Below are positions 44,503 through 49,269 of a stretch of DNA of 49,269 nt, piece by piece. Numbering within the stretch: the first letter of the stretch is position 1; every line of letters begins with the position of its first letter. The DNA is from Prevotella sp. GTDB lineage: Bacteria > Bacteroidota > Bacteroidia > Bacteroidales > Bacteroidaceae. The stretch lies in contig JAFUVB010000064.1 in assembly GCA_017471245.1 (NCBI GenBank), positions 1 to 49,269 on the forward strand. The letters run 5' to 3'. The position numbers and the translations under genes were made by a program. The notes below the pieces were generated by a model. That model saw only the letters and a program-made list of their open reading frames with translations, had not been told where the DNA came from and ran no database searches.

Positions 44503-47157
44503 TCATAATTCTTCCAACAGATACTGTTCCTTTTCTTCTGCCGTAAACGGGCGGTTGCTGAACCGTTCCCGCTGTTCGTCAATGAGTTCCTGCAAGGTGG
44601 GATGGTGCCAGAGGTAGATGGACTGACCGAGATGTGTGTAGATAGAGTGTCCGTCTGAGCTGAAACGAGCCCCCAGCACTTCTGTCTGATAGTCAATCAG
44701 CAGTTTACCGGTAGCCACGTCGTACACCTCGATGCAACCTTTGTTGGTGTCGGTGATCAGTGTCCTTCCGTCGGGACTGAACGACAGGTGCTCCGTTTTT
44801 TCCACCATTATCTTGCGGATAGTCTCCAATGTGGATGTATCCATGATGTGGATGCCATCTTTGAAGTGCATTGCCATGAGTGCTCCATCCGGACTATAGG
44901 CGATGTTACTGTCTATGGAGTAGCCCTCAACCTCAAATTCCCGGAACGTTTCTGTCTCGATATCCCACACGAGATTTATGTAACCATCCCAGTTACTCCC
45001 CTCTGCTGCAATGTGGCGATTGTCGGGCGAGAAGGAAACAGTTGTGAAAAAAGTGGGCTCTATCCGGGGATTCTTCCCCTTCATGTCCTCTCTCAGGATT
45101 TTCGTTTTGCCGCTTTTCAGGTTCCAAAGGTAGAACCTGCCCCAGTGGGAAGCTGCGAACCATTGGTTGTCGTATGAGAACATGAAGTTCTTCAGGTCGT
45201 CGGCCGTGGCTGGCAGTTCATGCAGGATGTCGCCGTTCCAGGCATCTGCCACAATGATAGTGCCGTAGATCACTCCCGGTTCTGGGTCAGGGCTTCCGTT
45301 CTCGCGCCAATCCGGTCTTTCCTTGAAGTAGGCGATCAAACTGCCATCGGGGCTTAGGGCGAGGTAATTCTCATATTCGAAGTATCCGTCTTGCTTTTGT
45401 TTCGACACGAGGGTGCCATCGGCGGTGTTCCATATCATCTTCCAGGCACAGTGGTCGCTGATGTTCCATGAGTAGGCAAGCAGTTGCTGGCGGTCGGGAG
45501 AGAAGTGCGACAGGTAGGGATAGGAATCCCCGTCGGTGTATTCCGTGATGAACGGTTTCTGATGCCATCTTCTTATATAGATACAGAACTCACCCTCACA
45601 TACAAGGCGGCTGTTGTCGAGCGTCACGTGGCATGTACCCGGCAAGTCGTTTCCCACCATCAGCAGCTGCTCGCCTGTTTCCATATCCCACAGGGCAGAG
45701 CCCGAGTTTAGGGAATAGGTGGAAAATGCCTTTCCGTCGGCACTGAACCTTATCGTGAAAATGTCAGGAATAGGGAAAGATTTGTAGTGCCGGAACGGGT
45801 CTATTTCCCATATCTTTACTTCCTCCTCGGTCGTGAAGATGATTTTCTTTCCGTCGGGACTCACGTGGAAAGGCCAGCCGAAGAGCGTACTCTTGTCAGA
45901 CAGCTTCATCCCCGTGGCGGTCATCCATGAGGCAACGCCATACTCGCTTGCCATATAAATCTTGGAGCCGTCTCCGTTAAAGAATATCGGACCGGAGCTC
46001 TCATTTTTCAATGGAATGCTGCGCTTGAGCTTACGCGTGCGCGTGTTCCATATCATGATCTGGCTTTTCTGTTGCATAGCTATCAATTTGCTGTCAGGAC
46101 TGAACGCGAGATAGTTGGAATGGTAATAGTTGATGCCGGCATTGGCGAGGAGGATGCAGCCTGCCATCTGTCCGCTCTCCACATCCCAGAGGATGAGAGA
46201 CTTGTCTACCGATACGGTGGCTATCAACCGGTCGTCGGGACTGATGGCAATGTCGGATATCATGGGCTGATGGGATTGCAGGGTATGGATGATTCCGCCC
46301 GAAGAAAGGTCGTAAACGAGTGTCCTGCCGTCGTGCAGGGCGACGGCGCACCACTTTCCGTTGGCTGCAATCCTCATGTGCTGTACACTCTTAGGCAGAT
46401 GGATGATGGCATCTTCGCTGGCTGCTGCCATGCGCAATGCCGCTTCTGCTTGTGCCACATAGGGGCGGTCGGGCTCAGAAAGGTTCTTGGGCAATGCCTC
46501 CAATGCCAGCAACCGGGCGGTGAAAGAATCGCCTTGCTTGTTCACGGCGATGGCTTTCTCGGCGAGGAAGAAGCTCTGCACCTTCTGCAAGTGGTTGCGC
46601 TCTCTGAGGATACGCTCCTTTTCTTCCTCCTCGGCGCGCAGGTAGCGCTGCCACAGTTTGTCAATCCGCAGCCCCAGCATGGCGGCCACCAGTTTCACGG
46701 CAGCATAGTCGCGGCTCAGTTCGTTCACGTTGGCACCGAGCTTTTCCTTGTTTTCCGTTATCCTTAGCAGGCTTTCGGGCAGGCACTCCTCTTCCTTGTT
46801 GTCGGCGTGGGGGATGCCTTCCACGATGAAGGGGATTACTCCCGATTCCCCGTTATAGTGGGCGAATGTCTGTATTTCCAGGTCAACCCACTTCGATTTT
46901 ACGGCGTTTGGCGAGCAAATCACTATCAGGAAGCGCGATGCTTTGAGGGCTTTCTCGATGTTTTCCGAGAGATAGCCCGGCTCCAGGTCGGTCACATCGC
47001 GGAAGATGGGGCGCAGATGGGTGGGCAGGTCGGGGCGTTCCTCCCTCACGTATGCCGGCAACTGATAGAATTCCAGTTTGTTTTGCAGCCACTCTGCCCA
47101 TTTCTCGTCTTTCCTGCTGTAGCTGATAAAGGCAAGATACTCTTTCTTTTCTTTCAT
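44503..47157 (-). CDS. TIR-WD40 repeat protein
   Basis: 884 residues. The TIR domain (about 1-155) begins LAFISYSRKDEKWAEWL, has the loop FRDVTDLEPG and the pair WVDLE with Glu94 where the catalytic glutamate of NADase TIRs sits. A helical region (about 170-265; RYLRAEEEEKERIL, then a repeat-like stretch with ARLLALEALPKN) follows, and residues about 270-870 form WD40 repeats (ISPDDRLIATVSVDKSLILWD, FSPDSKLIA, FSADGKAFSTY, LSPDGSLIAYF and others). TIR fused to WD40 is known in Bacteroidetes and cyanobacteria; TIR domains often cleave NAD or make signals in anti-phage or cell-death systems. Its ATG overlaps the stop of the RyR gene (ATGA), so the two are translated together. Confidence 0.88.
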   Translation of the reverse strand: MKEKKEYLAFISYSRKDEKWAEWLQNKLEFYQLPAYVREERPDLPTHLRPIFRDVTDLEPGYLSENIEKALKASRFLIVICSPNAVKSKWVDLEIQTFAHYNGESGVIPFIVEGIPHADNKEEECLPESLLRITENKEKLGANVNELSRDYAAVKLVAAMLGLRIDKLWQRYLRAEEEEKERILRERNHLQKVQSFFLAEKAIAVNKQGDSFTARLLALEALPKNLSEPDRPYVAQAEAALRMAAASEDAIIHLPKSVQHMRIAANGKWCAVALHDGRTLVYDLSSGGIIHTLQSHQPMISDIAISPDDRLIATVSVDKSLILWDVESGQMAGCILLANAGINYYHSNYLAFSPDSKLIAMQQKSQIMIWNTRTRKLKRSIPLKNESSGPIFFNGDGSKIYMASEYGVASWMTATGMKLSDKSTLFGWPFHVSPDGKKIIFTTEEEVKIWEIDPFRHYKSFPIPDIFTIRFSADGKAFSTYSLNSGSALWDMETGEQLLMVGNDLPGTCHVTLDNSRLVCEGEFCIYIRRWHQKPFITEYTDGDSYPYLSHFSPDRQQLLAYSWNISDHCAWKMIWNTADGTLVSKQKQDGYFEYENYLALSPDGSLIAYFKERPDWRENGSPDPEPGVIYGTIIVADAWNGDILHELPATADDLKNFMFSYDNQWFAASHWGRFYLWNLKSGKTKILREDMKGKNPRIEPTFFTTVSFSPDNRHIAAEGSNWDGYINLVWDIETETFREFEVEGYSIDSNIAYSPDGALMAMHFKDGIHIMDTSTLETIRKIMVEKTEHLSFSPDGRTLITDTNKGCIEVYDVATGKLLIDYQTEVLGARFSSDGHSIYTHLGQSIYLWHHPTLQELIDEQRERFSNRPFTAEEKEQYLLEEL

Positions 47158-47450
47158 GCTTTCACAATTTTGAATCCCGATTTCAGAATCACTTTCAGCG
47201 TTTCCTCAGATGACCTGCGGTCGTAAACCTTCTCTTCCTCCGGCAGTTCCTCGTATGCCACGAGGCAGGGATGCTGTTTCAGTTCGTCGTTGCGCTTCTC
47301 GCCGTAGCTCCAGCCTTGGCGCAAACGCTCCTCAGCCCACAGTTCGTGAACGTTCTTGGCCATCATCTCTAACAGCGGTTTCAGCGATTCGGGCAGTTCC
47401 ACATCCGATGTGTCGATGGGATGAGGCATGTAGTTGTCTTTTGTCTTCAT
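47154..47450 (-). CDS. stand-alone RyR-domain protein
   Basis: 98 residues. Residues about 31-93 (NVHELWAEERLRQGWSYG, NDELKQHPCLVAYEELPEEEKVYDR) match the RyR domain, first seen as a repeat in ryanodine receptors and common in prokaryotes fused or adjacent to signalling and conflict proteins. The start at 47450 follows the upstream stop by 2 bp; the long frame to 47624 overlaps the neighbouring gene out of frame and is rejected. No other domain. It probably binds a small molecule or protein and passes the signal to the TIR-WD40 protein; that role is inferred from gene order. Confidence 0.86.
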   Translation of the reverse strand: MKTKDNYMPHPIDTSDVELPESLKPLLEMMAKNVHELWAEERLRQGWSYGEKRNDELKQHPCLVAYEELPEEEKVYDRRSSEETLKVILKSGFKIVKA

Positions 47451-47452
47451 TG

Positions 47453-49269
47453 CTATGATGATTTGTTGATAAGCAGTTCCACGGTTTTTTCCATCACGTT
47501 GTAGTCGTAGTCTTGAATTTCCGGCGACAGTTCGTGCCACGGGCGCAGGCAAGTATGCGTTTTTTTCACCTCGTTGTCTTCGTCGCCGCAAACATATCCC
47601 AGCATCTCGTGCGAGGCAACCCATCTCAGGTGCTCACAAACAGCCATGTTTCTGATCACTTGCTGCATGGGCATTTGCTGCAGCAGCTGCTCGTCTTTCA
47701 CGTATTCAGGCTTTTCTTCCGAATTGAAAGAGTTGATGAAGTCGAGCAATGCCTTCTTTTCCTGCTGCTCATTGCTGAGCTGTGCCGCCGGGGCGTATAG
47801 CGCCTTTGCCTCTTCCATGGTAAGTCCGATGAGCTTGAGCTTCGTTCTTGCGTGCTGGCTGTTGGCAATGTCCTGACTTTCGCGGCGTATCAAGGCGTTG
47901 ATTTGCGCGATGGTGATTGCCGTTTTGTCGGTATTGATTTCATGCCTTGCGTCCCATGTCTTGCGGTTTTCTTCCTTTGAGGCAGAAAGGTTGTACTTGC
48001 TGTAGTATTGCATGGCCTCTTGAATGGTGTCTTCTGCCACGATATGCTCATAGGTATACGTGTCCTGTTGGTTGCCGAACACCACGATGTGTTCCAATTT
48101 CTTGCCATTGCGGTCGCAGATACCGCTCTTTTCGTTGTAGAAGGAGGCAATTTGGCGGAGCTTGCTCTCGTTTCCCTGCTGGTGTGAACGGATGAAAATC
48201 TTGAAGTGCTCCATGTCTTTTCCGTCAATTCTGCATGCCGTTTCAAACAGGTCGATGGCGAGTTGTATGTTTTCATCGTCATTTCCTAATGCGATGCATA
48301 CATAGTTCAGTTGGGGCAGGATGGTGTTTGTCCACGTCCAGAATTGCGGATCCTTGGTGGAATATTGCAGCAGTTCCACCTCGTTGTTGCCTTTGAGGGC
48401 AGGCATGTTGTGGTAGAAGTCGCCTCTGAGCGTGTCCATCCGGCTGTCGATGGCGTAGCATCTTACCGGGCACTTGTCGCCTTTGCTGTTGGGAAAAGCA
48501 CTGAATTCATAGAGGAAACGCAGCATGTCGCGCCCTGTTTCGCCAAATCCCACGATGAGCGAAATGAAGGGATTGCTGACCGTGGCTTGTGCCGTGTCGG
48601 GCGAAACGAAGCTTACGGGCTGGTATTCCACATGGTTCTTCAGTTGGTTCACTGCCAGTTCAGAAGAGTCGATGATGTGTATGTTCGGGTGAACGGTGCC
48701 ACCTTTCACATACGCCATCTTCTCTATCGCCCCGTTGGAGTCGGTTTTTCGGGCGTGGCAATAGATGTCTATCGATTTGCCTACGGTGCAGATGTCGTCG
48801 GCAAGGAAGTTCACCACCGACTTGATGTTGTCGTCCTCGTTGTCAGAAAGGAAGTAAGCGCGCACCTTATGGTGGTTTTTCATCAGCTGTCGCAGCCCGT
48901 GAAGTCCCAGTTTGTCTAACAGTTTATCATCAGCATTGTCTTCAGTGGCAGGGTGGTGGTTGGCATTTTGCAAAACATACCTGATGTCGGACAGCTGGTT
49001 AACGTATTCCCGCTTGTAGGGAAATATGCCGAATATCTGGCTGAGGCTTGCCGGTTCGGGCGATACGATGTCGTTTTGGGGCATGTCAACGAACACGAGA
49101 TGGTTCGCTTTGCGATATTCCCGTTTGCCGGTGATGCTCTTTGCAAGAAGCAGCGTGGGCTCGTTGAAGCCGAAGAACACGTTCAGCGTCTTCCCTTTGA
49201 ACAGCCTTTGCCGCGTGATTCTACAGAAAAAGCCTTCAATGTTCCAGCATTGGCACCAGAACCACGACT
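47453..49269 (-). CDS. Rossmann-RyR protein, 5' end outside the window
   Basis: The reading frame is open to the window edge (605 codons), so the true start lies beyond 49269; the GTG at 49180 is not a convincing start. A first nucleotide-binding fold of TrkA-N style begins LNVFFGFNEPTLLLAKSI and continues NHLVFVDMPQND; a second follows in the middle (SLIVGFGETGRDMLRFLYEF, then YAIDSRMDTL). The C-terminal part (about the last 65 residues) has AVCEHLRWVASHEMLGYV and a tail like an RyR domain. It is the first visible gene of an operon with the RyR and TIR-WD40 genes, 2 bp apart. Likely an NAD(P)- or nucleotide-sensing component. Upstream hydrophobic/aromatic residues (WFWCQCW) hint at a membrane segment before the window edge. 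Confidence 0.78.
   Translation of the reverse strand, partial: SWFWCQCWNIEGFFCRITRQRLFKGKTLNVFFGFNEPTLLLAKSITGKREYRKANHLVFVDMPQNDIVSPEPASLSQIFGIFPYKREYVNQLSDIRYVLQNANHHPATEDNADDKLLDKLGLHGLRQLMKNHHKVRAYFLSDNEDDNIKSVVNFLADDICTVGKSIDIYCHARKTDSNGAIEKMAYVKGGTVHPNIHIIDSSELAVNQLKNHVEYQPVSFVSPDTAQATVSNPFISLIVGFGETGRDMLRFLYEFSAFPNSKGDKCPVRCYAIDSRMDTLRGDFYHNMPALKGNNEVELLQYSTKDPQFWTWTNTILPQLNYVCIALGNDDENIQLAIDLFETACRIDGKDMEHFKIFIRSHQQGNESKLRQIASFYNEKSGICDRNGKKLEHIVVFGNQQDTYTYEHIVAEDTIQEAMQYYSKYNLSASKEENRKTWDARHEINTDKTAITIAQINALIRRESQDIANSQHARTKLKLIGLTMEEAKALYAPAAQLSNEQQEKKALLDFINSFNSEEKPEYVKDEQLLQQMPMQQVIRNMAVCEHLRWVASHEMLGYVCGDEDNEVKKTHTCLRPWHELSPEIQDYDYNVMEKTVELLINKSS

Follow-up and report, generated by a model that had tools for sequence, protein, structure and literature searches.

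A candidate Thoeris-like TIR-signalling system of Prevotella with a ryanodine-domain protein as putative ion-channel effector

Three adjoining genes of Prevotella sp., which encode a large membrane channel-like protein ending in a ryanodine receptor (RyR) domain, a solo RyR domain and a TIR-WD40 protein, probably form (with a probability of roughly 0.6) a conflict system of the Thoeris kind, in which TIR signalling would act on a ryanodine-domain ion-channel effector. Taken as a unit, the trio suggests a small-molecule-to-channel alarm in bacteria, probably antiviral. The genes lie in a stretch of 49,269 nt (assembly GCA_017471245.1, contig JAFUVB010000064.1, positions 1 to 49,269; hereafter the window) and follow one another on the minus strand in the order just given (Table 1). 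The stop codon of the channel-like/RyR gene (47455-47453) is separated by 2 bp from the ATG of the solo RyR gene (47450), whose own stop codon (47156-47154) overlaps the ATG of the TIR gene (47157) by 4 nt. This spacing bears out the three-gene operon proposed in an earlier note on this DNA; the interval given there, 47153..49269, leaves the TIR-WD40 gene almost entirely outside. The large gene is cut by the window edge, and the sequence past 49269, which the note had recommended obtaining, places the missing start at an ATG at contig position 49882, for a full length of 809 aa. The trio is flanked on one side by rpe (identified with Pfam) and on the other by a divergent gene read from its translation as trpD.

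Table 1. Coordinates of the features of the three-gene locus, as positions of the window, and the basis of each assignment.
Feature	Position	Strand	Basis
Channel-like protein with RyR, C-terminal part	47453..49269	-	ORF, start, nine-member family alignment, relative's model
First RCK-like Rossmann domain, motif FFGFNE (limits approximate)	48575..49186	-	Alignment and L054 fold matches
Second RCK-like Rossmann domain, motif GFGETG (limits approximate)	47963..48574	-	Alignment and L054 fold matches
C-terminal RyR of channel-like protein, H751/W754/H776/D793	47468..47671	-	PF02026 31.5 bits; residues
Solo RyR protein, 98 aa, H35/W38/H60/D77	47154..47450	-	PF02026 119.8 bits; PDB 3nrt match 7e-33
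TIR-WD40 protein, 884 aa	44503..47157	-	PF13676 56.4 bits; WD40 56.7 bits; further beta-propeller models
TIR domain, catalytic-type Glu94 (W90xxxE94)	46816..47130	-	PF13676 in genome scan; E94 invariant
WD40 beta-propeller region, putative sensor (limits approximate)	44578..46410	-	Pfam WD40/beta-propeller matches; sensing inferred

The RyR, TIR and WD40 domains that had been recognised in the translations were confirmed by profile search with Pfam. For the TIR-WD40 protein the scores in Table 1 stand against cut-offs of 28 bits (TIR_2, PF13676) and 27 bits (WD40), and the TIR domain also matches the ThsB_TIR model (33.6 bits, cut-off 21.2). The WxxxE motif is intact, as had been claimed, and its Glu94 is the sole invariant column in an alignment of 63 TIR domains (that of the window and 62 others), with Glu in 61 of them and the other two not covering the column; the notion of the TIR domain as an inactive scaffold was rejected because this Glu is kept across the alignment. 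What is fused to the TIR domain varies within the 63: FGE-sulfatase in five, SIR2_2 in four, Sel1 in three and WD40 in three (the window protein and two more). An nSTAND1-TIR-hexapeptide fusion lies near a channel-RyR relative at another locus (L096:15003-18479).

Against the PF02026 (RyR) cut-off of 27.4 bits the solo RyR protein scores 119.8, and the large protein is borderline, at 27.7 bits for the part in the window, 31.5 in the genome scan and 27.1 for the full 809 aa. Residues 3-97 of the solo RyR match PDB 3nrt at 7e-33, the best single-domain match among solved chains, and chains of RyR1-3 in the PDB are matched as well. The 3nrt entry, a 'putative ryanodine receptor', is presumably from Bacteroides thetaiotaomicron. 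An RyR structure from that species is mentioned in the accessible passages of a May 2026 preprint (PMC13232231), which describe RyDEP, a phage protein with PF02026 that hydrolyses 2'cADPR and 3'cADPR, the products of immune TIR domains. According to the same passages, the catalytic dyad of RyDEP is H75 and D117 and its ligand contacts are W78 and H100, and six of eight homologues tested bound the signals, those homologues being non-cleaving despite a well-conserved sequence (PMC13232231). Both RyR domains of the window carry H, W, H and D at the RyDEP spacing (+3/+25/+42), a comparison made by the residue names and spacing given in the preprint. Across 80 related loci these four residues are kept, in that order, in 79, 79, 78 and 78 of 79 channel RyR domains, in 41, 41, 36 and 40 of 41 solo RyR domains and in 27, 27, 24 and 27 of 27 other RyR proteins; the locus search patterns included EHLRW, yet 63 of the 80 loci were found by the other pattern alone. 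Because of this conservation at RyDEP spacing, ligand binding by the window RyR domains is likely, and cleavage is a property that cannot be read from sequence alone.

Solo RyR genes also occur in other settings. At three loci (L044, L045, L051) they are surrounded by apparently ordinary genes, and the contig shows no TIR up to 10 kb away; the idea that the solo RyR is a mere spare copy was rejected because the ligand residues are kept in nearly all, even though such orphans exist. Among 50,697 phage records, 244 match the solo RyR (E 0.001), and a scan of viral_contigs for its close relatives confirmed none. Two faecal records of Bacteriophage sp., both short and unannotated (L134, MT837259.1; L135, MT836850.1), encode RyR proteins 68% and 58% identical to it, which may stem from phages or from contaminating host DNA.

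The first 204 residues of the large protein, which lie past the window, contain a signal-like N-terminal segment and three more hydrophobic segments. Neither TrkA_N, the profile proposed for it earlier, nor any other Rossmann model in Pfam matches this protein, RyR being the sole match, and the evidence for its fold is the predicted model of a 773-aa relative (L054), transferred by alignment. That model begins with a P-loop-like membrane domain, continues with two Rossmann domains of RCK-like type and ends in RyR, and its fold matches are KtrA, TrkA, GsuK and CASTOR. Of the double-Rossmann/RyR protein described in the earlier note, the RyR domain and, by way of the relative, the two Rossmann folds are retained; the idea of a soluble protein is not, since a hydrophobic N-terminal part was found, and the relative models as a putative ligand-gated membrane channel rather than a soluble sensor. 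It had no match in plasmids, PADLOC has no model for either RyR protein, and NCBIfam yielded no useful name.

At two loci the main channel-like protein is directly followed by another, which has Slo-like_RCK and, at its C-terminus, a weak RyR match (L036:16759-18747 and L066:11934-13964); in L036 the gene after it encodes an M48 peptidase that also matches a zinc ribbon, and integrase-like and relaxase-like ORFs were read there from translations. RyR is found, too, in the C-terminal half of proteins of ~340-370 aa (L058:12627-13733 and L040:4655-5683), and the L058 protein also has a C39-like peptidase part and matches a zinc ribbon.

The linkage of TIR and RyR genes was counted with profiles iterated on six-frame ORFs in flanks of up to 10 kb. 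TIR ORFs are present in the flanks of 48 of the 80 loci (33 of the 45 whose flanks reach 9 kb or more on each side), and 57 of 63 TIR ORFs are on the same strand; a solo RyR is present in 40 loci, 27 of which have a TIR as well. Sixteen solo RyRs lie on the same strand within 300 bp, 14 of them directly downstream of the large gene, like that of the window. Among 151 genomes of the family, TIR was found in 45, RyR in 23 and both in 19 (Fisher 1.5e-8), and 17 of 37 RyR places have a TIR no more than 10 kb away, where roughly 0.86 would be expected, a figure that assumes 3-Mb genomes and no clustering, RyR places within one cluster not being independent; four of the 80 loci (L056, L059, L067, L093) repeat genomes of this sample. 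A mere chance neighbourhood was rejected by this count. The whole large protein occurs in nine of the 151 genomes, with a TIR within 10 kb in five (G000, G033, G083, G112, G124) and none within that distance in four (G011, G058, G070, G076).

The adjacency of TIR and channel-RyR extends to other families of the phylum. RyR was found in 27 of 395 genomes of the phylum sample, 20 of them from a single genus, whose tandem-RyR protein is of a different kind, and one being the window's own genome. Four of the remaining six have a TIR beside the channel-RyR gene (G152, G163, G184, where the TIR frame is short, and G366); in G239 the TIR is ~3.6 kb away, and in G246 the channel-RyR is at a contig end and no TIR was found. 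The partner in G163 is again a TIR-WD40 protein, and that in G152 is a TIR protein whose beta-propeller matches fall under their cut-offs. As to whether the trio itself is conserved, a question raised by the earlier note, the survey supports RyR-TIR linkage and finds few cases of the exact trio with TIR-WD40 (two of the 62 TIR ORFs at the 80 loci carry WD40; all three genes together in the window, L037, L038 and L072), the more constant pair being TIR and channel-RyR. In a genome of the window's own family (G017, L145:3536-10501), channel-RyR is followed by three TIR proteins, each with FGE-sulfatase and weak zinc-ribbon matches. In the genus with tandem RyR these domains usually lie in open frames of ~900 aa, and the one locus inspected has no TIR in its 9 kb; the protein of G319 (L144:2229-4898), of 890 aa, ends in two RyR domains and has weak matches of the AAA/STAND type, and 19 further genomes are of the same genus.

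In the mechanism proposed here, the WD40 propellers of the TIR protein would detect a cue of infection, and the TIR domain, which has the catalytic-type Glu, would use NAD+ to make a signal derived from ADP-ribose, probably an isomer of cADPR. The signal would bind the C-terminal RyR of the membrane protein, where the ligand residues are conserved, and the RCK-like domains, a fold predicted for the relative, would open the P-loop pore, with an ion flux that halts growth or kills the cell ahead of phage maturation. The least certain step concerns the solo RyR, which may bind or cleave the same signal and set a threshold or shut-off, or may serve as a co-receptor.

That the locus is likely a nucleotide-centred signalling or conflict system had been suggested in the earlier note, and the RyR-TIR linkage upholds it. 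The order of events suggested there, from a Rossmann/RyR sensor through an RyR adaptor to a TIR effector, is unsupported: flow from TIR to channel is the better reading because the relative models as an RCK membrane channel and because phage proteins bind TIR products through their RyR domains (PMC13232231). An unlikely reverse flow, in which the RCK/RyR protein would sense a ligand, an ion or the membrane state and the TIR would kill by NAD+ depletion, with the solo RyR as adaptor, would agree with TIR proteins that can act as terminal NADase effectors (PMC12847820, in the portion available) and with GsuK, one of the fold matches, for which PDB entry titles name structures with NAD and with ADP. 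Against it, besides the phage domains, stands the fact that the TIR fusions vary (WD40, SIR2_2, FGE-sulfatase, Sel1, hexapeptide, nSTAND1) while the RyR channel is constant, which fits the TIR as input and the channel as output.

In a genus sample of 40, eight relatives have rpe and trpD on one contig and at most 20 kb apart: the interval is only ~0.6 kb in G565, G548 and G150, ~4.9 kb in G566, where it holds a patatin-type gene plus one more ORF, and 12-16 kb in G573, G552, G559 and G575, with apparently ordinary genes. The rpe-trpD site may be a cargo spot, because in G566, a near relative, a patatin-like phospholipase gene (L136:2579-4120, Pfam 54.3 bits) occupies the same place. A comparison by PADLOC models (1e-10) set 70 genes, drawn from the 361 candidates that neighbour the 45 loci flanked by 9 kb or more on each side, against 70 control genes, drawn from the 114 in 14 arbitrarily chosen stretches of related genomes. 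A few genes matched in each set (55 families versus 13, several families per gene being possible); the 14 control stretches had no TIR and no RyR, of which only the TIR part is informative because the source genomes lacked an RyR match. The lack of a clear defence enrichment among the neighbours would suit a regulatory role in ion, osmotic or NAD+ state, with RyR as a sensor of adenine nucleotides that gates the channel, as would the orphan solo RyRs and the binding of ADP and an ATP analogue by the R12 domain of RyR3 (PMC12627627). This housekeeping role is hardly probable, and it fits poorly because presence is patchy (9 of 151 genomes), the site is empty in some relatives and TIR linkage is enriched.

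K+ channels carry the selectivity filter signature TxGYG/TxGFG. This signature is missing here: in the nine-member alignment the window protein has MFVGNTAYQE at that place, and relatives have MF or LF followed by variable residues. The helices of the relative's model may tentatively be read as an outer helix, a short pore-like helix and a long inner helix; the RCK-like tandem follows the membrane part, as in RCK-gated P-loop channels. Other proteins in related loci combine RyR, in some cases with a weak score, with Slo-like_RCK or TrkA_N. Both features speak against the very unlikely reading that the membrane protein conducts nothing and instead clusters on signal binding and disturbs the membrane, for which the missing filter signature speaks, as does the proposal that TM-macro ThsA effectors of Thoeris cluster upon ligand binding (PMC11204291).

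A broader and more tentative proposal is that of a cADPR-isomer-gated bacterial channel, in which RyR on an RCK-type channel would receive a TIR-made signal, with an antiviral role across the phylum and interchangeable TIR sensors. Such a cADPR-ligand logic has already been proposed for animal ryanodine receptors. If true, an ion channel would be added to the effectors of TIR signals, and RyR would gain the role of host receptor, as opposed to the phage counter-defence described in the available passages of PMC13232231. The long-open question of whether RyR binds cADPR and gates a channel would become testable in a small protein, and a fold shared with the host receptor would hint at the reason for RyR sponges and glycosidases in phages.

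Burroughs et al., in Nucleic Acids Research in 2015, are said to discuss RyR domains in prokaryotic nucleotide systems, and the title of Yirmiya et al. (2025) reportedly suggests that systems such as this one may be named there. Novelty is provisional: among the matches listed for Thoeris, RyR and TIR, no description of a host TIR and RyR-channel system was found, and the two papers listed for Thoeris together with RyR are the RyDEP preprint (PMC13232231) and a review from 2021 on NAD signalling in axon degeneration (PMC8295901). The trio is Thoeris-like in that a TIR gene with the catalytic-type Glu kept adjoins a gene for a likely nucleotide-binding domain with an effector part, and by analogy it would work as Thoeris does, but without a known ThsA-type effector, given that Pfam and PADLOC gave no match to SIR2-SLOG, TM-macro or caspase-like types on the large protein. 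The sensor domain here is RyR, whereas in Thoeris it is SLOG or macro; the effector is a predicted RCK-type channel instead of SIR2, TM-macro or caspase-like; and there is an additional solo RyR, as well as WD40 on the TIR protein. With RyDEP the locus shares PF02026 and the four ligand residues with their spacing, but the phage RyR acts in counter-defence (PMC13232231, available passages), whereas here host RyR genes stand beside a TIR gene and one is fused to a membrane RCK-like protein. Among solved structures, PDB 3nrt is the closest single-domain counterpart of the solo RyR. GsuK, MthK, Slo and CASTOR/DMI1 have, like the relative's model, a P-loop-like membrane part and tandem Rossmann domains, and the protein described here differs in its C-terminal RyR, its lack of the K+ filter signature and its linkage to TIR. 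Animal ryanodine receptors, finally, bear the same Pfam domain on an ion channel, as is predicted here, but they are of ~5,000 aa, whereas the Prevotella protein is of ~800 aa, with a P-loop-like and RCK-like body and another order of domains.
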